A stretch of DNA of 47,502 nucleotides from a virus: IMG/VR virus record IMGVR_UViG_3300033064_003504, positions 1 to 47,502 of that record. The stretch is one strand, 5' to 3'. This document shows positions 16,418 through 42,702 of this stretch, piece by piece. Each line of letters opens with the position of its first letter. Position 1 is the stretch's first letter. Both the position numbers and the translations under genes were made by a program. Under the pieces are notes generated by a model. It searched no databases and was not told the DNA's origin. It was given only the letters and a program-made list of their open reading frames with translations.

Positions 16418-16792
16418 ATGGTATCAAATTCATATCACCTGGTTAAAGTTTATCGTCTTCGATCAAGTATGACTACAATCAGTCTTGCAAAGCGCGCGAA
16501 GCTGACCCCGAGAATAATTCACATGATAGAAAAGGATCCAGATTACAACCCTACAAGGAGAACAATGATTCAATTAAGTGATGCGCTAGGTGTTCCTCCG
16601 AGTGTACTCTTCTTCCCTGAAGAGGAGCTCGACAAGAGACAGATGATCAGCACACTGGTTCTTTTTTGCATGGAAAACCTCAACATAGATGAAGCAGATG
16701 TCCTAAGGACCTTGCAAAATATGTCCCTTAACACACATCCAGTGCTTTCTCCTTCTGATACTCATACTCCGCATCTTCCAGCTGCTTCATAA
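16418..16792 (+). CDS. XRE-family helix-turn-helix regulator
   Basis: 124 residues. A Cro/C1-type HTH covers about residues 5-60: helix 2 with SLAKRAKLTPRIIHMIEKD, then the typical NPTRRTMIQLSDALGVPPSVLF end. The rest is a short, partly disordered tail. The start chosen keeps helix 1; a longer frame to 16364 is possible. Its last 65 bp overlap the end of the terminase gene on the other strand. It is the only recognisable DNA-binding regulator in the genome, so it is the prime candidate for the operator described at 26243, 31300 and 36108. Confidence 0.75.
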   Translation: MVSNSYHLVKVYRLRSSMTTISLAKRAKLTPRIIHMIEKDPDYNPTRRTMIQLSDALGVPPSVLFFPEEELDKRQMISTLVLFCMENLNIDEADVLRTLQNMSLNTHPVLSPSDTHTPHLPAAS

Positions 16793-19256
16793 ATGCCCTT
16801 GGAGTCCTTGGAATGATAGGATTTGAATCCTCTTCGCTGAACAATGGGGCTGCACAGGACAAGATTAGGTAACGTAATGCATCCATAGCATGATCGCAGT
16901 TACTTGTCAAGACTCCATTAGCATAGTACATACCATTAGCAGTTTTCAAGTTGTAAACTGGCTTCTTTCCTTGTCTTGTGTCCTGCACTGATAGTACACG
17001 CCCCTGGACAATGTTGTGATGGATTATTTTTGTGAACATATTTCTTTTTACCGCATGTTTTACAGATTCTCCATTCATAGTATCTATTCTCTTTATTATA
17101 TTGATTAGATCTACAGTTTGAATTGCAGAATGCTGGAGGTCTCCACTTTCTAACGATCTTGGATTTAAATTCTTTATTACAGAATTTACAAATATACGTT
17201 TTAAGTGGCTTCTCGTTTTGATGAATTCTTGTATGGTCTGCAATATCGAGACACATAAGATTTTGAGGATGGTTATTAAGAGAATTACCGTCCTCGTGAT
17301 GAATCTGACACCCTGTAGGAATTTCTCTCTTATAAACCTTTTTCCATAGCTCAACATGGTACCTCTTTTTTGTGGAAGTGTTGACAAAATAGTCTCTTCT
17401 TGATCTTCCTGATTTTGTATCAGGAGCATCTGGATAACGATAATACACAACTCCGTCAAGCCAGACTTCTTCCCTTGATCCATGGGCATCGCTTCTTTGT
17501 TTTCTATTACGCATATATGATCATTGTATTTTATGTCACTCATAGCAGTCAACCCTTTTCCTATAACAAAAACCTGATGACCTGGAGTCGCTTCAAGTGT
17601 AGTATTCTTTGTTTGTATAATCATTGTTTCTTCAACACCTGTACAGTTAGACTCTAGTACTTCAGTGAATCCTCCTGCGCTCAACACAAAATCTCCCACA
17701 GAAACATCTGATATACTTTTTTCTCCAGAGTTGGTAATTACATTGACATTTTTAGGAAAACATTTCTTAATCGGGACTTCATACAGAGATTGATCGAGAG
17801 TCCCTACTCTTTCCTTTGGCCAGCGATACAGATCAAACTCCTCTCGGGTTTTAATGCAGTCCTTTGTAATGAATAGCCTTGGTGATCCAAGCACAGATTC
17901 CCCGTCCTCAGTTCTCTTATATGGATTCGGATGCATAGGATCCCACTGCAGGTACTCCTTCATACGCGCTAGACCTGAAGCAATATCATTCTGCGTTCCA
18001 GGACGACAGATAACCTTGTGCCTTCTGAAGTCATCGGCAATAGAGTATCGGTGCTCCTCTCCTGGCTTGTAGATAAAGTTCACCTGTGTCTTATTGAAGA
18101 TACTCGGGTCTGGGAACTTGATGTACACATAACCATCTGAGTCCATCGGTGCGTACTCATGGAGCCACATAGAAGCTTCTTTAATAGGGCAATCCCTTCT
18201 ATAGAATTCCCGGAAGACCGTGAAGTTGTTGTCATGATCCTGATTCACAAAGAGGAATACCATAGGGTTGGTCTGACCGTAGTCCATACAGATATCGAAG
18301 TTCTTGAAATCTTGACTATGGATCATATTGAGATTCTCATGGTATTCACCATAGACTTTTCCAGTAGAGAAGATGAAGGCTTCCTCTGGTTCTGACGGAT
18401 AGAGCTCAGGCATACGTTCTCGCAGCTCATACTTCTTATGGTCCCACCAGAGCATCTGCTCCTTTGAGAGAGGTGTTCCATCAGAGTTTCTGTACTTTGC
18501 TTCAATCACCTTACATTCATCTGGGAAGAATAGCCTGTCATCTGACTCCCAGTGTGTTGCATTCTGTGGATCATCGAACCAGGGGAAGAAGAGAGGTAGC
18601 CATTCTGGCTTCTCTCCTGACTGTAGTATATTCCAGTTATTCATGAAGGTTCGCTCAAACCAATTTCCTCTACCGTTGGCCGTAGACTCGCACAAACAGA
18701 CGTTTCCAGGCGATAGAGATTCAAGGGAGTCCTGAAACTTTGCCTCATCTTCGAAGTATGCAATCTCAGAAAAGTGAAGGTACGTCGGTGTCATACCTCG
18801 GGCTTCAACGTCAATGGAGTACTTGGATCCAGTGCGCTTCACTACGATCTCTGACTTCGTGGTGTACTCGAGCTCGGGCAAAAGACTTGGATTCGTATCC
18901 TGCAGAGTCTTAATGGCGAAGTTCGGGATATCATGGAACAGCTCTGTCACTGTCTGCTTACGGTGAGCAATGGAACGACACATCTGGTTCGGGCTGTATA
19001 AAGCCTTGTCCAGGAGATAGATAGCGATCCCTGTGGTTACTCCGAGCTTACGTGGCTTCAGGATGATGACGCGCTTATGGCCATCCTCTAGAGCCTGATA
19101 GATAATCCTCTGTGTCCTATTCGGGACAAAGATGATACGTCTACCCTCAAGCCCTCTGTTCTTTGTTCTGATACTGTATAAATTATTGAGTCGCCAGTAT
19201 TGATCTCCGGCAATTCTCTCGAGAGCCGACTGCTGATCCACCTGTGCATCTTGCAT
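16728..19256 (-). CDS. terL: Terminase large subunit, intein-containing precursor
   Basis: 842-residue precursor; 554 residues remain after removal of the intein (residues 499-786). ATPase motifs: Walker A-like KPRKLGVTT (67-75), Walker B-like YLHFSEIA (about 159-166), motif III CESTANG (189-195). The RNase H-like nuclease begins at DICMDYGQ (Asp325), and its last catalytic motif DHAMDALRY follows the intein. The protein translocates DNA into the prohead and cuts concatemers. A TTG six codons upstream is open, but TTG and its neighbours form an extended -10 (TGCTATACT), so the ATG at 19256 is preferred and the mRNA would be leaderless. Confidence 0.92.
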   Translation of the reverse strand: MQDAQVDQQSALERIAGDQYWRLNNLYSIRTKNRGLEGRRIIFVPNRTQRIIYQALEDGHKRVIILKPRKLGVTTGIAIYLLDKALYSPNQMCRSIAHRKQTVTELFHDIPNFAIKTLQDTNPSLLPELEYTTKSEIVVKRTGSKYSIDVEARGMTPTYLHFSEIAYFEDEAKFQDSLESLSPGNVCLCESTANGRGNWFERTFMNNWNILQSGEKPEWLPLFFPWFDDPQNATHWESDDRLFFPDECKVIEAKYRNSDGTPLSKEQMLWWDHKKYELRERMPELYPSEPEEAFIFSTGKVYGEYHENLNMIHSQDFKNFDICMDYGQTNPMVFLFVNQDHDNNFTVFREFYRRDCPIKEASMWLHEYAPMDSDGYVYIKFPDPSIFNKTQVNFIYKPGEEHRYSIADDFRRHKVICRPGTQNDIASGLARMKEYLQWDPMHPNPYKRTEDGESVLGSPRLFITKDCIKTREEFDLYRWPKERVGTLDQSLYEVPIKKCFPKNVNVITNSGEKSISDVSVGDFVLSAGGFTEVLESNCTGVEETMIIQTKNTTLEATPGHQVFVIGKGLTAMSDIKYNDHICVIENKEAMPMDQGKKSGLTELCIIVIQMLLIQNQEDQEETILSTLPQKRGTMLSYGKRFIREKFLQGVRFITRTVILLITILKILCVSILQTIQEFIKTRSHLKRIFVNSVIKNLNPRSLESGDLQHSAIQTVDLINIIKRIDTMNGESVKHAVKRNMFTKIIHHNIVQGRVLSVQDTRQGKKPVYNLKTANGMYYANGVLTSNCDHAMDALRYLILSCAAPLFSEEDSNPIIPRTPRAFMKQLEDAEYEYQKEKALDVC
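16936..17514 (-). CDS. HNH homing endonuclease nested out of frame in the intein
   Basis: 192 residues, in the -1 frame relative to terL. The HNH core is GCQIHHEDGNSLNNHPQNL (about 81-99), followed by DHTRIHQ. Two Cys4-type zinc fingers follow (CKFC with CNSNC; CKTCG with a Cys pair near the end). The last roughly 20 codons are dual-coded with intein block F. A TGA lies three codons before the ATG, so it is not a simple frame continuation. A promoter-like TTGACT-18-TACAAT ends 8 nt before the ATG. This is the likely agent of intein mobility. Its fold is clear; independent expression is inference. Confidence 0.88.
   Translation of the reverse strand: MRNRKQRSDAHGSREEVWLDGVVYYRYPDAPDTKSGRSRRDYFVNTSTKKRYHVELWKKVYKREIPTGCQIHHEDGNSLNNHPQNLMCLDIADHTRIHQNEKPLKTYICKFCNKEFKSKIVRKWRPPAFCNSNCRSNQYNKENRYYEWRICKTCGKKKYVHKNNPSQHCPGACTISAGHKTRKEASLQLENC
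17523..17552 (-). promoter_or_regulatory. Candidate leaderless promoter for the nested HNH gene
   Basis: TTGACT (17552-17547), 18-bp spacer, TACAAT (17528-17523); each box has five of six consensus bases. Transcription would begin at or next to the HNH ATG at 17514. It lies inside intein coding sequence, so it must satisfy two constraints at once. Confidence 0.55.
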
Positions 19257-19264
19257 ATATGGAG

Positions 19265-19273
19265 AGTATAGCA
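19265..19273 (-). promoter_or_regulatory. Extended -10 promoter of terL
   Basis: TG-C-TATACT on the minus strand, ending 8 nt before the terL ATG at 19256, with no recognisable -35 box. The spacing predicts a leaderless mRNA. TGC-TATATT at 31395 and TGC-TATTAT at 36165 share the same extended -10 form. Confidence 0.5.
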
Positions 19274-19281
19274 AATCGGAA

Positions 19282-20523: not shown

Positions 20524-20908
20524 TAATATAAAGCCGTATAGCCTCATAGTTGATCTTATCAATACAGTTGTCATCCTGATGGCAGTTCTTTTCTCTTGAG
20601 ATCTTCAGAGCAATAAGGACCTGAGAAAGGATCACCGGATCTATTCCATCGTCCCCGAAGTTTGCCTTATAGATGTAACAGGTGTCCTGAAAGTTCTCTA
20701 GAACCTCTCCATACTTCTCTCCGCGTTCATCTGCGATATCTGCAGCTTCACGTAGAATTGGACCGTAAGAGGCCACTTGTTTCTCTCCTTCAAAACATTC
20801 CTTACAACTATTTCCATTAAGGTCACTATAGATATGATTACCTTTGGGTAGAATTTTTTCACATGATATACATTCTGAATTATTTCTTGATTCTCTTGCT
20901 GCGGTCAT
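20489..20908 (-). CDS. Phage protein with Cys4 zinc finger and DUF6378-like domain
   Basis: 139 residues. The N-terminal third carries CISC and CKEC pairs (about 14-37), a probable zinc ribbon. The rest reads GEKYGEVLENFQDTCYIY, then ISREKNCHQDDNCIDKINYEAI, the pattern of a small phage family (DUF6378-like, helical, acidic residues as in MazG-type folds). It may act on nucleotides, but that is not shown. The ATG overlaps the exonuclease stop (ATGA) and ACCCC lies 7 nt upstream. It is the last gene of the replication/recombination unit. Confidence 0.6.
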   Translation of the reverse strand: MTAARESRNNSECISCEKILPKGNHIYSDLNGNSCKECFEGEKQVASYGPILREAADIADERGEKYGEVLENFQDTCYIYKANFGDDGIDPVILSQVLIALKISREKNCHQDDNCIDKINYEAIRLYIIRHQHPEPQSS

Positions 20909-21594
20909 ATTAAGTGGGGTAAATAATGTTTAATAGATTTAAAAATACTCTTATCGAAGTCATCCTGCTGCAGTACCCAGGATATATAGTCAGTAGGCAG
21001 ATCGATGATCTTCTTCCCTCTGTGCTTTCCGAAGGGCATAGTTTCTGGGATGCCGTTGCTGATCTCTAACCACTTGGCAATTGTTTCATCGTCAGTAATA
21101 CCAATGTCTTGTTGAATTTTCAACATATGAGCGAAGAGTCCGATCATTACCATAACGTCACCCAGGGCATCATGCGCCTTCAGATCTTCATCTGGTACAG
21201 GGAATCCAATACGATCTTTCAGGTCCTGCAGCTTATGATTTGGCTCTCCTCTGAGTACATGACGTGCGACCTTACAGGTACAGATGTGTTGTGCAGGAAC
21301 GATACCTTCCTGAGCCAGCACCTTTAGGTCGTAGTCCGCATTATGGCAGACGACGATGCTCTCCTTAGCGAGATCTTGTAAATCATAGAAATGATCCGAC
21401 CCCGGGAATAACAACTTATCTTTTAAGGACTCCATGCTAATCCCGTGCACCTTCTCAGCACCTTCTTCTATTGGTTCAGTAGGAAGGAAGTATTCCATAC
21501 AGCGTTCCCCTGTTGGATGATGCTCCCAGGCAAGCTGAATGAGCCTGTTATGTGTGAAGCCTGTAGTTTCTGTATCAAGGAAGAGTAGGTTCAT
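20905..21594 (-). CDS. DnaQ-like DEDDh 3'-5' exonuclease
   Basis: 229 residues from ATG 21594. That start is fixed by an ATGA overlap with the upstream gene, and a longer frame is ignored. ExoI motif FLDTETTG (Asp7, Glu9), ExoII HNADYD, ExoIII KAHDALGDV (His and Asp) give the DEDDh set. The C-terminal about 45 residues carry MPFGKHRGKKIIDLPTDYI, a DUF3820-like module often fused to such nucleases. It removes nucleotides from DNA or RNA 3' ends. With no phage polymerase visible it may proofread for the host enzyme or act in recombination. Confidence 0.85.
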   Translation of the reverse strand: MNLLFLDTETTGFTHNRLIQLAWEHHPTGERCMEYFLPTEPIEEGAEKVHGISMESLKDKLLFPGSDHFYDLQDLAKESIVVCHNADYDLKVLAQEGIVPAQHICTCKVARHVLRGEPNHKLQDLKDRIGFPVPDEDLKAHDALGDVMVMIGLFAHMLKIQQDIGITDDETIAKWLEISNGIPETMPFGKHRGKKIIDLPTDYISWVLQQDDFDKSIFKSIKHYLPHLI

Positions 21595-21812
21595 CGTGTG
21601 TAGGGAATAAGAACGAATGCTAGAGCATTGACGCTTATGAGACAGAAGAAGTATAAGAGACAAGCCCTCCAGAGAGAGTACTGACTAAATGGACCAGGAA
21701 TATAGGACCTGGATAAATGCCAGCCAATAGGGAATCCGGCAAGCCAGAGAACTGTAGATAGCGTCTGAAAGATGTATACGAATGCCAGTGATATAAATTG
21801 AGTATCGTTCAT
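21591..21812 (-). CDS. Small two-span membrane protein
   Basis: 73 residues with two hydrophobic helices (about 8-28 and 48-68). It is joined to its neighbours by ATGA overlaps on both sides, so translation is coupled. The function is unknown. It might tether the replication complex to the membrane, but this is only a guess from position. Confidence 0.6.
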   Translation of the reverse strand: MNDTQFISLAFVYIFQTLSTVLWLAGFPIGWHLSRSYIPGPFSQYSLWRACLLYFFCLISVNALAFVLIPYTR

Positions 21813-22063: not shown

Positions 22064-23299
22064 TTATTCTTTACTGGAATCGGATACAACCTCTCCATCT
22101 TCAATAACAAACCCCATTTCTCCTGAATCGTCAACCATCTCGACGAACACCTGGAAGTCATGTGCCTGAGCCATCACTCCTAAGGCCTTTAAATTATCTT
22201 TGTCTAGCAAGGATCCATCCTTGACTATCATGACCCTTAGATCGGGATTCTGGGACATACCGATGGCAGTACTCACTTTGATCTGTTCTGAGGAGGACAG
22301 CTGACCGAATGGAATATCTCTAAATGTGACCTCATCACCTACAAGGGAAAGCCCTTCTACTGGCATCTCAGCCTTATCTAAGGCATCGAGCTTCTCCTGG
22401 TCCAGCTTCTTTATGAAGGCAGTTCCAGAATCATACTTGTCAGCCTGCTCCTTGTACTCTGCAGTGAGTTTCTTCTGATCTTTCTTAATTCTTATATTTT
22501 TATTAACTAATTCAGCATTATCAATTTCATCCTGGATAACTGATAGATCTTTTTTCACCCTACCAGCCATGTAATCTTTTGCATCCGTCTGCTTCGCTTT
22601 GGCAATTTCAAGTGCATCTTCTAATTTTTCGACCTCTGCTGTCGCATCTCGTAATACTGATACACCCTTATCAAAGTCATAGTTATTATCGGTTTGCTCC
22701 TGATTCTGCTTCAATAGATCCGCTACTACCACCTCTTCATCAGGAGTATTACTCGGGAAGTCTGGAAGTGACTCAACCGCACCCTGTAAGCGATCACGCT
22801 CACGGCCTATGTCTGTACGCTTAGCAAAGACCTCTGCACGTTTTGCTTCATGCTCATCAAGGTCGATCTCAATATCTACAATAGAGAGGAGTAGCTCCTT
22901 CTGATCTTTCATCTTCATTCGGGTGAACTCTAGAGGATCGAAGCTGAGATCTCCGAGGATCTGATCGAGCATCTTCTGTGGAGAAGAGAACTTCTCCCCT
23001 TTAGATCCAATGACAGAGAGTGATTCCTTTCCTCCGGCTATCCAAGTTCGACGGACTGTATAATCATCGAGCTCTACCTCTACCCAGGCTTTCTTCTCTC
23101 CATATCTTACAGTCTTTGTCGTAAGCCTAGCGACATCTGACTTACTCCCGCCAAGAGCGAGGACCATAGAATTGATCAGTGAGCTTTTACCCTCACCATT
23201 TTTTCCAGAGATGATGATGGTGTTACCCTTTTCATCTAGGGAGATGTCGAATAGCTTCATTCGCATCATATTCTCGCCGCGTAGTGCATGTACTTTCAT
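22064..23299 (-). CDS. RecF/SMC-type recombination ATPase
   Basis: 411 residues. Walker A is SGKNGEGKSS (31-40). A long coiled-coil hairpin (about 150-300) is followed by an ABC-like signature region (FGQLSSSEQIKVSTAIG) and a Walker B-like LRVMIVKDGSLLD. This is the compact SMC/RecF arrangement of phage recombination ATPases that partner a nuclease, as in SbcCD or T4 gp46/47. The PD-(D/E)XK nuclease two genes upstream is the obvious partner. The usual Asp-Glu of Walker B is replaced by Lys-Asp. Confidence 0.82.
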   Translation of the reverse strand: MKVHALRGENMMRMKLFDISLDEKGNTIIISGKNGEGKSSLINSMVLALGGSKSDVARLTTKTVRYGEKKAWVEVELDDYTVRRTWIAGGKESLSVIGSKGEKFSSPQKMLDQILGDLSFDPLEFTRMKMKDQKELLLSIVDIEIDLDEHEAKRAEVFAKRTDIGRERDRLQGAVESLPDFPSNTPDEEVVVADLLKQNQEQTDNNYDFDKGVSVLRDATAEVEKLEDALEIAKAKQTDAKDYMAGRVKKDLSVIQDEIDNAELVNKNIRIKKDQKKLTAEYKEQADKYDSGTAFIKKLDQEKLDALDKAEMPVEGLSLVGDEVTFRDIPFGQLSSSEQIKVSTAIGMSQNPDLRVMIVKDGSLLDKDNLKALGVMAQAHDFQVFVEMVDDSGEMGFVIEDGEVVSDSSKE

Positions 23300-23608: not shown

Positions 23609-24646
23609 TTAAGGAATGGTAATTTTAGTAATCGTCTTCTTGGCAGATGGTATTGGTTCACCAGATTTCTGTACGACAGAAGTTTCAATAATAGCTTTCT
23701 TTTCTAAAGATGTTGTAGATAACTCTGTACCAGTATGCTCATGTTTATATTCTGGCCTCTTCGCCCAGGCAGGGGTCTCATCCTCCTCCAGGAACTTTCC
23801 ATCCATAGCAGGCTGATCCAGACGAAGCATATCCTCAACTTCAAAGACGCGACGGCAGGACTTAATCTCTCCCCAGGTCCTGACTCCGCTTCGCATCGAG
23901 GACTTCTGATTAGTACGATTCCAGATCCTTTTAGCTGCAAGGAAGTCTTCGAAGTGTTCATCGAGCTCCTGTTCATCCTGACACATCTCGAAGAGGTAGT
24001 TCTTTCTATCGATACCACCGAAGAGGAGAACCCCTACTGCATCGATCTCACCTTCCCCCATCTCCATCCAGGATCTCCTGTAGGCTCCCAGCTGTCCCCA
24101 GAAGGAATCATATATACTCTTTCCCGTCTTAAAGTCCACCATGACTCTAGCAGAGCCGAAGTGCCCCCCAGTGACAATGATATCTGTCGTTCCTGCGAAC
24201 CAAAATTCCCAGGAGTAGAGGGTACACTCAAGCGCAGGTTTACCCGTCAGACGATTAACGAGTGTCGGGTAGCCCATATCAGCATGCCACTCCTTAAAGG
24301 ACTCAAGCCTTCTCCATTCATCGTATGCAAGCATGTCATCATCTCTATGGAATTCTTTTTTATACTCATGAAAGCTCAGGACCTCTCCTTTCACAATGCG
24401 TTCAATGTGCTGATGAACACGTGATCCACGTGCACCTCCTGCATTACGAGCTGAAACAGCATCTCCATATGTCTTCTGTTTAGCGAGCCACTCCATGAAC
24501 TCTCGACCCTTTGGCCAGACGCCTAGCAGCGTAGTCACGCTCGGAGCCTGATCATCAGTGATCTCAATACGCTTCTCTTCAAACCAGATGTCCTTGTCTG
24601 GCATATTGTAGAATCGTTCGCCGCTGGTTGGTGAGAATGTGTACAT
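23609..24646 (-). CDS. PD-(D/E)XK nuclease, Cas4/RecB-like
   Basis: 345 residues. Catalytic motifs: Glu140 (ALECTLYS), GTTD (Asp155), DFKTGK (Asp171 and Lys173), then a QLGAY helix (Gln185, Tyr189), the standard RecB/Cas4-type core. The C-terminal about 80 residues look disordered and Thr/Lys rich. It probably resects double-stranded ends for recombination with the SMC-like ATPase. Its leader can form a hairpin that hides the CCCCC motif next to the start. Confidence 0.85.
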   Translation of the reverse strand: MYTFSPTSGERFYNMPDKDIWFEEKRIEITDDQAPSVTTLLGVWPKGREFMEWLAKQKTYGDAVSARNAGGARGSRVHQHIERIVKGEVLSFHEYKKEFHRDDDMLAYDEWRRLESFKEWHADMGYPTLVNRLTGKPALECTLYSWEFWFAGTTDIIVTGGHFGSARVMVDFKTGKSIYDSFWGQLGAYRRSWMEMGEGEIDAVGVLLFGGIDRKNYLFEMCQDEQELDEHFEDFLAAKRIWNRTNQKSSMRSGVRTWGEIKSCRRVFEVEDMLRLDQPAMDGKFLEEDETPAWAKRPEYKHEHTGTELSTTSLEKKAIIETSVVQKSGEPIPSAKKTITKITIP

Positions 24647-24730: not shown

Positions 24731-26002
24731 CTACCAGCCTTCTGGCCCATCTTTCTTCTCTTCTGAAGGTTCAGTCTCAGTATCATCCATAAACTGCTTC
24801 AGCTTAGGATCTTCCATCTTCTTTTCCATGTCAGCTGCATCTGCATGCGCTACCTCTGCAGCGATCTTTGTTGCATCACCGACTCCAGACTCCTCGATGT
24901 ACTCTTTAGTCTCCTTGTTCTGCTTAATGGCCTCCTTCTTATTGCGAGGCTTCTGGCTATGGTCTGGCTTCTCAATCTCTTCCTTTGGGGTTACTACCTC
25001 AGCCTCTACAGGCGTAGGACCTTCAAAGTCTTTAGCAATGTCATCGACAGTTTCAGCCTTAGTGACCTCTGCAATCTCTGGAACTACTTGCCCCTCTTCT
25101 AGCTTTGGAAGGCTGTCCTGCTGTGTAAAGACTCTTGGATTAGCGACGAGGTATGAAATATGACGAGGATCGAAACAGATGATTGAACTCTTGTCTTCTG
25201 TATTACCCCAGGCTCTTGATGTCTTGAAGGCAAACTTCTGCTGAAGAGTTTCTGTAAGAGAAAGGAGTGAGTCATCGATCAATTCCTTCTGATCTGCACC
25301 AACACGGCCAGAGATTTCAAACCCCTTGATGAAGTCCGTAGAATTATCGAAGGCTGGCTTTGAGAAGAATCGAATCACGTGAGAGAACATCACCTTTGCT
25401 CCGGCCTCCTTGTAACAGGCAGGCTTTACAGAATGGAATGACTCTGCGTCTGCCTCACTGAATCCGAGAGGCTTGAACTTCTTATTTTCACATCCTGTAT
25501 TGTCTGTGGCTGCGAAGTTGAACTTGTAGACCTCTCCATCATAGAGAACGTACGCTACATACTTTACTCCAAGATCTGTATGTGAGGTGTCCTTTAGATG
25601 CTTAATAGACATGTCTGGCTCTGCCTTATTCATATAGGGGAGGCAGGCAACGATCTGATCCTCTCCTGTAGAGCGATCAAATAGGACGATTGGATCAAAG
25701 TTGCTCCTGTACTCACTAGAGCTAAAGGTGGTTTCTCCTGCTGCCTTATCGTAGAACTTCAAGTGCTGTGCGTCCCGGAGTACGATACCGAGGAACTCGT
25801 TACCGATATCAGTGAAGATAGGGTCTTCACCCTGCTCGACGTTTCCATCGAATACGAAGAAGTTTCCTACTGGAATACCCTGTGATCGTGCATCCTTCTG
25901 AAGATCAATACAGAGTCTGATCTCTTTCATCTTTGGATAGCTGCCCTGGCTCTTATCGGCGTACTCTGCGTAGCCGTCAACTGGAAGTAATTCTTTTGTC
26001 AT
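24731..26002 (-). CDS. Unknown replication-module protein, possible DNA-binding
   Basis: 423 residues. Residues 1-290 are a mixed alpha/beta domain with several beta strands and no enzyme motif. Residues 290-423 are low-complexity, acidic and Lys-rich (EEIEKPDHSQKPRNKKEAIK, then an acidic tail EEKKDGPEGW). It is abundant-looking, first large gene after promoter 26243 and upstream of nuclease and ATPase. A single-strand-binding or annealing role is possible given the place and acidic tail, but no family is recognised. Confidence 0.6.
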   Translation of the reverse strand: MTKELLPVDGYAEYADKSQGSYPKMKEIRLCIDLQKDARSQGIPVGNFFVFDGNVEQGEDPIFTDIGNEFLGIVLRDAQHLKFYDKAAGETTFSSSEYRSNFDPIVLFDRSTGEDQIVACLPYMNKAEPDMSIKHLKDTSHTDLGVKYVAYVLYDGEVYKFNFAATDNTGCENKKFKPLGFSEADAESFHSVKPACYKEAGAKVMFSHVIRFFSKPAFDNSTDFIKGFEISGRVGADQKELIDDSLLSLTETLQQKFAFKTSRAWGNTEDKSSIICFDPRHISYLVANPRVFTQQDSLPKLEEGQVVPEIAEVTKAETVDDIAKDFEGPTPVEAEVVTPKEEIEKPDHSQKPRNKKEAIKQNKETKEYIEESGVGDATKIAAEVAHADAADMEKKMEDPKLKQFMDDTETEPSEEKKDGPEGW

Positions 26003-32016: not shown

Positions 32017-32044
32017 CCGTTTCCCCTTTTTACCCCTCTATATT

Positions 32045-32989: not shown

Positions 32990-33673
32990 TTAGAATGGTA
33001 GGTCCTCTTCTTTTATATCTGAAGTCATGACTGGCTCTTCTATTTTCTCTTCTTCTATTGGCTCTGGCGTAGGCTCTGGCCTTGGATGCATACTCAGTGG
33101 CATAAGTACACCTACAGCATCCTGATTACTTCCTACTTTCGCTCTCATTATGAGAGGTGTAGTACTATCTGTGACCTCAATTTCAACGTAATAATTCTCT
33201 ACAGCATGTTTTTCGAAATACGCTGCCATATCTTTTAGATACTTTGCACTGACTGCAATTCGTACCTTTGGTTCACCTGATGGAATTATCTGCTTATAAT
33301 CGGGATATTTTCCTTCGATTGCCCTTGCTGAAACATCATCAATTGTTTCTAAATCTGACGTTTTCAAGTGTACCGACATATCATCAATAGAAACAGAAAC
33401 ATTGTGCAAGCATTGCAAGGCACACTTTTTTGGTATGTTTGCCCTTGCCTTTGCAATGGCTACAGTTGGAATAATGACGCTACCTTCTCCTGTAGACTGT
33501 AGTTGTACTGGCATATCATCCGGATTAATTACTGGATGCGATACTTCTAAAAGTCTGTAAGAATCGGTAGCAACCGATACTGTATCAGTGACATAAACGC
33601 CAGTAAGTATTGGCCGTGTCGGACTGCCTGATGCGTGACTCATAACGTCAAGTGATGCTTTAGATAAAAACAT
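32990..33673 (-). CDS. Beta sliding clamp-like protein with SSB-type tip
   Basis: 227 residues from ATG 33673, with ACCCC 8 nt upstream; the longer frame lacks this. RPILTGVYV...VATDSYRLLEV (about 20-45) and EGKYPDYKQIIPSGEP (about 120-135) are the patterns of DNA polymerase III beta subunit domains; the end QDAVGVLMPL matches the clamp C-terminus. It is short (host clamps about 370 residues), so it has about two of three domains. A Pro/Glu linker leads to an acidic end KEEDLPF, like the SSB tip. It may tether host polymerase and SSB-binding proteins at the phage fork. Confidence 0.75.
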   Translation of the reverse strand: MFLSKASLDVMSHASGSPTRPILTGVYVTDTVSVATDSYRLLEVSHPVINPDDMPVQLQSTGEGSVIIPTVAIAKARANIPKKCALQCLHNVSVSIDDMSVHLKTSDLETIDDVSARAIEGKYPDYKQIIPSGEPKVRIAVSAKYLKDMAAYFEKHAVENYYVEIEVTDSTTPLIMRAKVGSNQDAVGVLMPLSMHPRPEPTPEPIEEEKIEEPVMTSDIKEEDLPF

Positions 33674-33756
33674 AATATGAAGGGGTAAATAGTAGGAAGT
33701 GATAAATTTGGCATCTCTCATGGCTCTGTAAGGCTTTAGAATATTTTTTAGGTATG

Positions 33757-38453: not shown

Positions 38454-38864
38454 ATGAACCTAGAAAAAACAATCAAACCTCAAGGAGTACAGATCCTCGT
38501 AATGCCAGTAGAGGAGGGCAGTAAGACCGCATCAGGTCTTGTCGTTAAGACTGATAAGCCGACTGGAAAGGCTCCGAAGATCGGGGAGATTATTGATATA
38601 TCTCGTTATATGAACAGAGTATTTGAGAACTTTAAAACAGTAGAACAGATGGGATCAGCGTTTATATCTCCAGAATTTAAAATTACAATCCTGTGCAAGG
38701 GCGACATCGTCATATTTGCCGAGTACGCCGGAGATGATATCGAAGTAAAGGATCTAGACACCGACAAGATGGTCAAATTAAAGCTTATTCCAGCCGAGAA
38801 TATCCTCGGAACTATTTCCAGTACCCCCCAGAAACATGCAAGCAAAGAAGATAGTAAAAAGTAA
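38454..38864 (+). CDS. groES: GroES-like co-chaperonin
   Basis: 136 residues against about 97 for host GroES. GroES fold signatures: IKPQGVQILVMPVE (start), mobile loop EEGSKTASGLVV (about 20-31), KGDIVIFAEYAGDDIEVKD (about 80-98). About 30 extra residues (ISRYMNRVFENFKTVEQMGS region) lie in the roof loop, and a Lys/Ser tail follows. It caps the GroEL ring. The gene overlaps groEL by 29 bp and has CCCCC upstream. Confidence 0.85.
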   Translation: MNLEKTIKPQGVQILVMPVEEGSKTASGLVVKTDKPTGKAPKIGEIIDISRYMNRVFENFKTVEQMGSAFISPEFKITILCKGDIVIFAEYAGDDIEVKDLDTDKMVKLKLIPAENILGTISSTPQKHASKEDSKK

Positions 38865-40470
38865 AGACTGCAGAGCCGCGATTCTTTCCGGTGTAGAGCA
38901 GTTATATAGTCCAGTAGCGTCTACACTAGGTCCAAAGGGCCGCAACATCATTATCGAAGGGCCCAATGGCCGTCCGACCGTCACGAAAGATGGCGTCACT
39001 GTTGCCGAGGAGATTGAACTTCCAGATCCGATCGAGAACCTCGGGGCGCAGCTTGTAAAGGATGCCGCTCGGAATACCAATGCACTTGCTGGAGATGGAA
39101 CTACTACGGCTACAATACTTGCGTATCACATGATGAAGGGGAGTTTAGAGTTTCTCGGGAAGTCTGCAAATCCTATTCTGATCAAGCGTGGTATGGACAA
39201 GTGTGTTGCGCTTATCGCTGCCGAGCTAAAAAAGATGGCAAAGCCAGTGGAGTCGAAGGATGACTATGAGGCCGTTGCGACTATCTCTAGTCAGGATCCA
39301 GAGATCGGAAAGATGATTGCCGATGTGATCGACGAGGGTGATGATGATGGCGTTGTCATTATTGAGAAGGGTCATGGCATGGGCCTTGAGAGCCGATTTG
39401 TGAAGGGGATGCAGTTTGAATCAGGATATCGCTCTGCATACTTCGTGAATAACACTGACAATATGACCGTTGAGCTAGAGAATTGTGCAGTTATAGTGAC
39501 TTCTGCACGTATTACGAATATCAATCAGATCTTACAGATGCTCGAGGGGCTCGCGCAGAAGCAGCTTAAGAATGTTGCTATCATCGCAGATGACTTCGAG
39601 CCAGAGGTTCTCGAGGTTATGATTCTTAATAAGAGGGCAAATATGATGAGCCCTGTTGCGATAAAAGCTCCAGGGTACAAGAAGAATGAGGTCTTAAAGG
39701 ATATTGCAGTCTCTACAGGGGCTACATTCCTTTCTCAGGAGGAGGGATCTCCAGTTGAGAAGGGTCGACTTGACGATGTCGGATACTGTAAGAAGCTCAC
39801 AGTGACAAGGGATCTGACCACTATTACAGAGGGCACTAGTGATCATGAGAGCCTCAAGGCACGTATCGATGAGATCAAGGCACATGTAAAGACACTAGAG
39901 AGTGAGTACGATATAGAGCAGGCCAGTAAAAGAATCGCTCGTCTAACTTCCGGTATCGGGATCATTTCCGTCGGAGGTGCTACAGAGGTAGAGGCTACAG
40001 AGCGCATGCACCGCGTTGAGGATGCCCTCTCTGCGGTCCGAGCAGCGTCTGTCGAAGGAATAGTACCTGGAGGAGGTACGGCTCTTATACGGGCTGCAAG
40101 TCTTGTTGAGAAAAGCAGAGGGCCAAGAGAAGGAAATATCGACGAGGCTGCCGGCTTCACTATTGTATTAGATGCAATCACAAAACCTCTTTCAATCATC
40201 GCAGAGAATGCAGGAGAAGATGTACTAGTAGTCTTAAAGAAGGTACAAGAAGGGAAAGATAACTACGGATTCAATGCGCTGACAGGGGTCTACGAAGATC
40301 TCCTTCTCGCAAGAGTCATTGATCCGACCCTGGTCACAAGATCTGCACTAGAAAATGCGGCCAGCGTTGCTTCTATGTTCGTTACCCTTGAGGGAGCTAT
40401 TACGAATATTCCACTTAATACTCAAGAGAAAGCTCTTCAGGCCATGATGGGTCCGAGGCAGCCAATGTAA
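38836..40470 (+). CDS. groEL: Phage GroEL chaperonin
   Basis: 544 residues, full-length. ATP site LGPKGRN (31-37), DGTTTA with Asp87, catalytic-type Asp396 (RVEDAL), GIVPGGGTAL (408-417). The usual C-terminal GGM repeats are absent (ends MGPRQPM). ATP-driven folding cage, with the adjacent GroES. Phage chaperonins usually fold coat proteins. Start ATG is inside groES, with ACCCCCC upstream. Confidence 0.95.
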   Translation: MQAKKIVKSKDCRAAILSGVEQLYSPVASTLGPKGRNIIIEGPNGRPTVTKDGVTVAEEIELPDPIENLGAQLVKDAARNTNALAGDGTTTATILAYHMMKGSLEFLGKSANPILIKRGMDKCVALIAAELKKMAKPVESKDDYEAVATISSQDPEIGKMIADVIDEGDDDGVVIIEKGHGMGLESRFVKGMQFESGYRSAYFVNNTDNMTVELENCAVIVTSARITNINQILQMLEGLAQKQLKNVAIIADDFEPEVLEVMILNKRANMMSPVAIKAPGYKKNEVLKDIAVSTGATFLSQEEGSPVEKGRLDDVGYCKKLTVTRDLTTITEGTSDHESLKARIDEIKAHVKTLESEYDIEQASKRIARLTSGIGIISVGGATEVEATERMHRVEDALSAVRAASVEGIVPGGGTALIRAASLVEKSRGPREGNIDEAAGFTIVLDAITKPLSIIAENAGEDVLVVLKKVQEGKDNYGFNALTGVYEDLLLARVIDPTLVTRSALENAASVASMFVTLEGAITNIPLNTQEKALQAMMGPRQPM

Positions 40471-41349: not shown

Positions 41350-42702
41350 CTACCAGGGTAGTTTTTTGGAATCTTTCCTGTCACTCGTTGCTGGTTCAAC
41401 CTTCTTCGGCTTATTGATTACAAAGGCTCTATCCTCCTCTGTCATTAAAGACTTCTTCTTCTCGAACTTCAACCTAGTGTATCCTGTAGCCCCATGTCTA
41501 TTCTTTCGAAGCACCCACTCAATCTCTCCGATAGGATTTTCAACCTTCATAGCCTCTTTCATTGTCATCGCCTCACTCGAAAGTTCCTCTTTAGCGTTCG
41601 GATTGTGAAGGAAGGTGATCTGGTCAGGGTCCTTTTCTCCTCCTCCATAAAGGTCCGAGAGTCGTGGCTGTCTTTCAGCTTTGTCTTTTTCTACATCTCT
41701 GTTTAATTGCCAGAGTAGAATAATTGGCTTCCCTGCTTCCATTGCAGCATTCTTTAAATCTCGAGATATATCGTTCGCTTTCTGTACCGAGTTCTCTTTG
41801 CTCTTCGAAGAGATTAGACCGAAGTAATCGATAATGATTACCTGTGCTGGTGTCGTATAGATCTGCTGTAGAATACCCGAAATGTCGTCATTATGGTACA
41901 TATACCAGGGCGTCTGTATTCCACGTACAAGTGCCTCTCCTTTTTCGAGTACCTCATCCTTATCAGTCTCATAGTATGCAGAGAGCATTCTTTTTAGTAC
42001 CTGCTTCTGGCTCATCTCTAGGGAAATGAATAAGGGGGGGACGCCAGCCTTCAAGAAGTTTGCCATCATCGTACTAGCCATAGCAGATTTACCCACTGAA
42101 GGACGGGCAGCAATGAGGAACACCCAGCCAGCCTCTAGGCCTCCATCAAGGATTGCATCCATGTCAGCAAATCCTGTAGGTATCTTTTCATCAACAGTCA
42201 GGAGATCCTTGATAATCGCATCCTTGTCCATCTCTACTGCCCTAGGAATAATCTCTGCAATCTTACGGCTTGCTTCAGCAATGAGTTGCGGAAGCTCCGT
42301 GACATCATGATCATTATCTGCACCGATCTCAGCCAGTTTCTGTCCAGCCTTGATCGCGCAGCGCTTGCTGTACTTGTCTTGAATAACGCGCACTGCACTC
42401 GGGGCAAGTGACACACTCACGACCTTATTTGTTAGATCCATTAAAAAGTCAACACCACCAATCTTCTGAACCTCTTGCTTATCAGCAAGGGCGCTACAGG
42501 CCTCAATAAAATCTGGTTCCTTTCCGGCTTCCTGTATCTCTTGCAGTGTCTTATAGATCAGTGCATAGGTCTTATCGTAGAAGTGCGCGGGAGTCAGCAT
42601 CTTTAGATACTGAGATTCTCCCATCATAATACATCCAAGTATCGTGTACTCAGATTCCGAAGAGTGCGGAAGCATTGCCGTTGCTGTAGGTTTCTTAGGC
42701 AT
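41350..42702 (-). CDS. dnaB: DnaB-type replicative helicase
   Basis: 450 residues. N-terminal DnaB domain (SESEYTILGCIMM, about 15-110), linker, RecA core with Walker A AARPSVGKSAMAS (198-210) and Walker B VIIIDYFGLI (288-297); PTGFADMDAILDGG precedes. It opens the fork for the host or phage polymerase. No dedicated loader or primase seen. The leader is highly structured (42726-42834), and no C-rich motif precedes the ATG. Confidence 0.93.
   Translation of the reverse strand: MPKKPTATAMLPHSSESEYTILGCIMMGESQYLKMLTPAHFYDKTYALIYKTLQEIQEAGKEPDFIEACSALADKQEVQKIGGVDFLMDLTNKVVSVSLAPSAVRVIQDKYSKRCAIKAGQKLAEIGADNDHDVTELPQLIAEASRKIAEIIPRAVEMDKDAIIKDLLTVDEKIPTGFADMDAILDGGLEAGWVFLIAARPSVGKSAMASTMMANFLKAGVPPLFISLEMSQKQVLKRMLSAYYETDKDEVLEKGEALVRGIQTPWYMYHNDDISGILQQIYTTPAQVIIIDYFGLISSKSKENSVQKANDISRDLKNAAMEAGKPIILLWQLNRDVEKDKAERQPRLSDLYGGGEKDPDQITFLHNPNAKEELSSEAMTMKEAMKVENPIGEIEWVLRKNRHGATGYTRLKFEKKKSLMTEEDRAFVINKPKKVEPATSDRKDSKKLPW

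Follow-up and report, generated by a model that had tools for sequence, protein, structure and literature searches.

A phage clamp homologue of one and a half domains with an SSB-type C-terminal tip

Introduction

The protein encoded on the minus strand from 33673 to 32990 of the window, which is the whole stretch of DNA analysed here (a virus contig from IMG/VR, 47,502 bases long), raises the question of what a small phage relative of the bacterial beta clamp (DnaN) might do with a C-terminus of the type found on single-stranded DNA (ssDNA)-binding protein (SSB). If this tip works, the clamp pocket and the SSB tip, two recruiting hubs of bacterial replication, would be combined in one small phage protein, which would then be a natural bifunctional probe of replisome recruitment. 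The tip aside, the protein belongs to a large and mislabelled family of 1.5-domain phage clamps; how these could close a standard ring is not obvious, and how they work is a testable question. No report of an SSB tip on a clamp, or of 1.5-domain phage clamps, was found among open-access papers.

A phage relative of the bacterial beta clamp

The gene is present in a single copy within the record and encodes 227 amino acids that end ...PVMTSDIKEEDLPF, with KEEDLPF as the final residues before the TAA stop codon (32990..32992, minus strand). A TTTACCCC motif (33682..33689, minus strand) supports the start at 33673: it ends 8 nt before the start codon, a spacing common to many genes of this phage. 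The original prediction of a clamp homologue is borne out by matches to phrog_3007 (E 2.7e-19, residues 17-196, against a profile of 190 positions), to phrog_947, annotated as ‘DNA polymerase processivity factor’ (E 2.6e-15), and to the central beta domain in Pfam, DNA_pol3_beta_2 (E 3.3e-4, which lies below the curated cut-off); solved beta clamps are also matched in phmmer, the best at 7.4e-5. By sequence and predicted fold, the protein (hereafter the window clamp) is a relative of the bacterial beta clamp.

In the predicted structure, which was computed from a 40-row alignment (mean pLDDT 80, pTM 0.67), three beta-alpha-beta-beta-beta half-domains are seen with inner helices at residues 5-16, 70-78 and 143-156; three inner helices correspond to three half-domains and thus to 1.5 clamp domains. 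Superposition with VIA-align places residues 1-195 on residues 127-311 of beta (E. coli numbering), the best match being the 7evp clamp (Z 11.8, rmsd 2.9, 175 aligned residues), and weak Foldseek matches to PCNA were also obtained. The profile of the short-clamp family described below aligns with E. coli-type beta at 136-304 and then, with its last 60 positions, at 313-366, and Pfam domain-3 matches in relatives cover profile positions 68-121. As judged from these alignments, the core consists of domain 2 followed by a half-domain similar to the C-terminal half of domain 3, so that the protein has neither domain 1 nor the N-terminal half of domain 3. The domain 2 equivalent (residues 1-131; 33281..33673, minus strand), delimited by profiles, model and superposition, comprises two half-domains with the first two inner helices and the pocket residues L23, T36, R40, L41 and P124. 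The third half-domain (residues 132-196; 33086..33280, minus strand), delimited by sequence and model, carries the remaining inner helix and closes with VLMPLSM, where E. coli beta has VVMPMRL. That the clamp is reduced had been predicted correctly; the count of about two of the three clamp domains was too high, the actual content being about 1.5 domains. With three half-domains only, the window clamp is not a DnaN in the sense of three clamp domains per subunit.

Shorter subunits of the clamp fold, of which more copies are needed per ring, are also known from PCNA and T4 gp45. These have two complete domains, in contrast to the 1.5 domains of the window clamp, which is much closer to beta by sequence. 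Bacterial DnaN shares the homologous fold and the pocket region with it, but its three domains are complete and it carries no acidic tip.

The peptide pocket

The beta clamp binds peptides in a pocket between domain 2 and its C-terminal MPMRL sequence. At eight of the 17 pocket positions, the window clamp has the same residue as E. coli beta, compared with about 18% identity overall (P 0.004-0.008). The shared positions are L155, T172, R176, L177, P242, V360, M362 and P363, and alterations are found at G174S, H175Y, R246 and R365S. The pocket columns T36, G38, H39, P124, M191 and P192 are among the most conserved in the family alignment. The pocket residues have been partly kept, and the pocket may still be able to bind clamp-binding peptides.

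A widespread family of short phage clamps

A tblastn search with one Vibrio short clamp matched 195 phage records, and a scan of viral contigs for short clamps gave 483 confirmed candidates, 80 of which were kept. Hundreds of members from viral contigs make this a widespread clade; its proteins are 170-245 residues long and nearly all terminate at MPxRL. In a tree, the window clamp falls inside the short clade (support 0.98), apart from full-length DnaN and nearest to L099 (0.82), a grouping that is somewhat biased because the tree alignment was fitted to the short-clamp profile. The short clamps of PHROG 3007, for example Vibrio phage 1.087.A gp54, Gordonia phage Ebert gp49 and Bcep781 gp15, likewise comprise domain 2 plus one half-domain and have the conserved pocket columns and an MPxR-type end in common with the window clamp, at identities of only about 23-30%. 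Unlike the window clamp, they finish at MPxRL, a few residues beyond it or in short unrelated ends, and lack the linker and SSB tip.

These short clamps carry the label ‘RusA-like Holliday junction resolvase’ in PHROG 3007 and, through PHROG, in RefSeq (NC_070804.1, NC_005887.1, NC_070846.1). The label is evidently wrong, since Pfam RusA matches neither the window clamp nor nine of its relatives and the short-clamp family profile finds E. coli-type beta at E ~1e-28. The depositors of Burkholderia phage Bcep781 had annotated gp15 as a ‘DNA Pol III b subunit fragment’, and the phage studied here encodes a separate RusA at 2218-2703 (phrog_140). In several related phages, the short-clamp gene lies in or near DNA-metabolism genes. 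Some phages, Vibrio R20L (L013) among them, encode a short clamp and, a few genes away, a separate SSB with a DDDIPF tip; we conjecture that a nearby SSB gene of this kind would offer a source for the tip fusion.

The linker and the SSB-type tip

The clamp core is followed by the 25-residue linker PRPEPTPEPIEEEKIEEPVMTSDIK (residues 197-221; 33011..33085, minus strand), evident from sequence and model, and by the tip EEDLPF (residues 222-227; 32993..33010, minus strand). Both elements had been foreseen: the linker is rich in Pro and Glu, and the tip shares with the SSB C-terminus (SSB-Ct, DFDDDIPF) the terminal Phe with its free carboxylate, the penultimate Pro and the acidic residues. Bacterial and phage SSBs likewise have a disordered linker leading to acidic residues, I/L, P and a terminal F. 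In the model, the tail has no secondary structure and a pLDDT of 62-83. Partners of SSB bury the terminal Phe of SSB-Ct and hold its carboxylate, affinity drops when this Phe is missing or the Pro is changed to Ser, and docking requires a linker of 11-20 residues (PMC10164576), a minimum that the linker of the window clamp exceeds. The protein thus has an SSB-type tip, that is, acidic residues, I/L, P and a terminal F on a sufficient linker. In contrast to SSB, the tip is carried by a clamp; Pfam, PHROG and the model gave no OB fold or ssDNA-binding domain in the protein, the whole core of which has the clamp fold.

A chance origin of the tip is unlikely. An ending of three acidic residues, I/L, P and F is expected about 5e-7 times per gene at ordinary composition and about 4e-6 at the composition of the linker itself, and among the 52 likely genes of the window only the clamp gene has an SSB-type tip. 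Viral contigs were also searched for EEDLPF followed by a TAA stop, which gave at least 61 non-redundant proteins. The commonest families among those listed are ssDNA-binding (PHROG 4932, 44, 378, 7778 and 18154), and their Pfam matches include DUF3127 (at least nine), SSB (at least six), DUF669 (at least four) and gp32 (at least three), as well as Erf and primases. A GroES and a nucleotide hydrolase are exceptions among the listed proteins, so the end is not exclusive to ssDNA-binding proteins. This viral GroES (L126:1016-1330) ends NEESEEDLPF and so has an SSB-type tip, perhaps by chance.

The tip is found in one of the 99 clamp ORFs compared. The original prediction had named relatives without the DLPF end as the finding that would refute it, and all 98 relatives examined, mostly below 35% identity, do lack this end. 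As these are all distant, the tip can be no more than a gain of this lineage and is not a family trait. The original prediction is supported in part, and its proposal that the tip could hijack many host proteins stays a hypothesis. Close relatives of the window clamp were not found in the viral_contigs search, where DnaB and SbcC-like queries gave none either, and a motif-based scan recovered no kin of the phage. Among the listed matches to a pattern of MP, some 20-30 residues and an acidic-PF end, no clamp with the tip was present. The combination of a short clamp and an SSB tip is real and so far known from one virus only. A genome scan with the window clamp picked up DnaN genes via the peptide KYPDYKQI, most of them from Patescibacteria (candidate phyla radiation); the ends of these proteins are ordinary, and the matches are a weak, pattern-biased hint at the host.

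Possible functions of the tipped clamp

Among the genes of the window, Pfam and PHROG identify a DnaB (41350-42702), an epsilon-like exonuclease (20905-21663), an SbcC-like ATPase (22064-23299) and a second exonuclease (23609-24646), and the phage also encodes a P22-type portal. Pfam and PHROG recognised neither an SSB nor a polymerase or clamp loader among the genes of this possibly incomplete record, so that host proteins are probably used, although the phage may encode an SSB or polymerase beyond the ends of the record. The explanation that we favour, with a confidence that stops somewhat short of an even chance, is that the reduced clamp is an accessory protein of replication or recombination, the tip of which docks host SSB partners. 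The clamp core would sit at phage DNA or on proteins with clamp-binding motifs, for instance the polymerase or the clamp loader of the host. The EEDLPF tip on its flexible linker would at the same time bind one or more host SSB partners in the pocket that receives SSB-Ct. Candidates for these partners would be the clamp-loader chi subunit where present, primase, PriA, RecO and proteins of the RecQ/RecG type, which would thereby reach phage forks or recombination intermediates. Expression of the protein, its oligomeric state and its binding to DNA are inferred as part of this explanation. Clamp homology, the grouping with short phage clamps, the excess of identical pocket residues, the non-random tip that is unique among the window genes, its terminal Phe and penultimate Pro, the prevalence of ssDNA-binding proteins among the listed viral proteins with this end, the length of the linker and the replication gene set speak for this explanation; the tipless distant relatives, the altered pocket residues and the doubt over ring formation by 1.5-domain subunits speak against it. 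Other proteins of the window contain a few loose matches to clamp-binding motifs, which were not judged to be above chance.

The loss of the canonical ring interfaces (domain 1 and half of domain 3), with the pocket side kept, would also suit a soluble or open competitor that does not encircle DNA, the pocket of which soaks up host clamp-binding peptides and the tip SSB partners, so that host replication or repair is slowed. We consider such a competitor unlikely, as the short-clamp clade is widespread and the gene lies in or near DNA-metabolism genes in several related phages. It is similarly improbable, in our view, that the tail is a neutral, disordered acidic extension with a fortuitous likeness to SSB: all six tip positions fit the SSB consensus, at the low chance expectation calculated for the linker composition, even though an acidic tail in itself raises the odds of an SSB-like end, the 98 other clamps have no tip, and viral proteins as unrelated as GroES and a nucleotide hydrolase also end EEDLPF.

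EEDLPF also fits a clamp-binding hexapeptide, QxxLxF (for example QVELEF at the C-terminus of pol III alpha), except for the change of Q to E. The tail could in principle be a degenerate version of this motif that binds the pocket of its own or a neighbouring subunit, regulating access or holding the oligomer together, or that binds the host clamp. The partly retained pocket and the tail pLDDT, which is not very low, would agree with this; however, the tail lacks Q, which is conserved more strongly than any other residue of the motif, D-L-P-F with its terminal Phe free is closer to SSB tips, and the listed viral proteins with this end are mostly ssDNA-binding, which leaves self-binding with little probability. 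A further model starts from the 12 inner helices of known clamps (2 x 6 or 3 x 4). With three inner helices per subunit, a ring would need four subunits, and, should the half-domains alternate up and down, it would have two-fold axes and two identical faces. That the short clamps form such a face-less ring of four subunits, to which the window member adds up to four SSB tips as a hub for SSB partners replacing a phage SSB, is a speculation that we regard as very improbable.

Other features of the phage genome

Beside the second exonuclease gene, a 423-aa protein with an acidic tail ending DGPEGW is encoded at 24731-26002 (minus strand). No family or relatives were found for it, and its single-sequence model has a pLDDT of 35; it is possible that it is an unrecognised ssDNA-binding protein.

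The motif upstream of the clamp gene is part of a wider pattern. A C-rich TTT(T)ACCCC sequence is found 7-9 nt before the start codons of many genes, for example at 33682-33689, 34280, 35460 and 35831 on the minus and at 32029 on the plus strand. TACCCC precedes 11 of the 52 likely genes, compared with a background of 0.5%, and of the nine TTTACCCC octamers, eight immediately precede a gene start and one precedes an in-frame ATG. No enrichment of Shine-Dalgarno motifs is seen upstream of the window genes (6 of 52, compared with 17% at random). The TTT(T)ACCCC motif may be an unusual translation-start or promoter signal.

The large terminase subunit (16728-19274, minus strand) is split by an intein-like Hint region, which spans residues 518-790 and matches Pfam Intein_splicing at E 8e-7. 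The phage also carries its own GroES/GroEL pair (38454-40470, plus strand), the GroEL of which shares about 40-44% identity with GroEL proteins from other phages and from bacteria.
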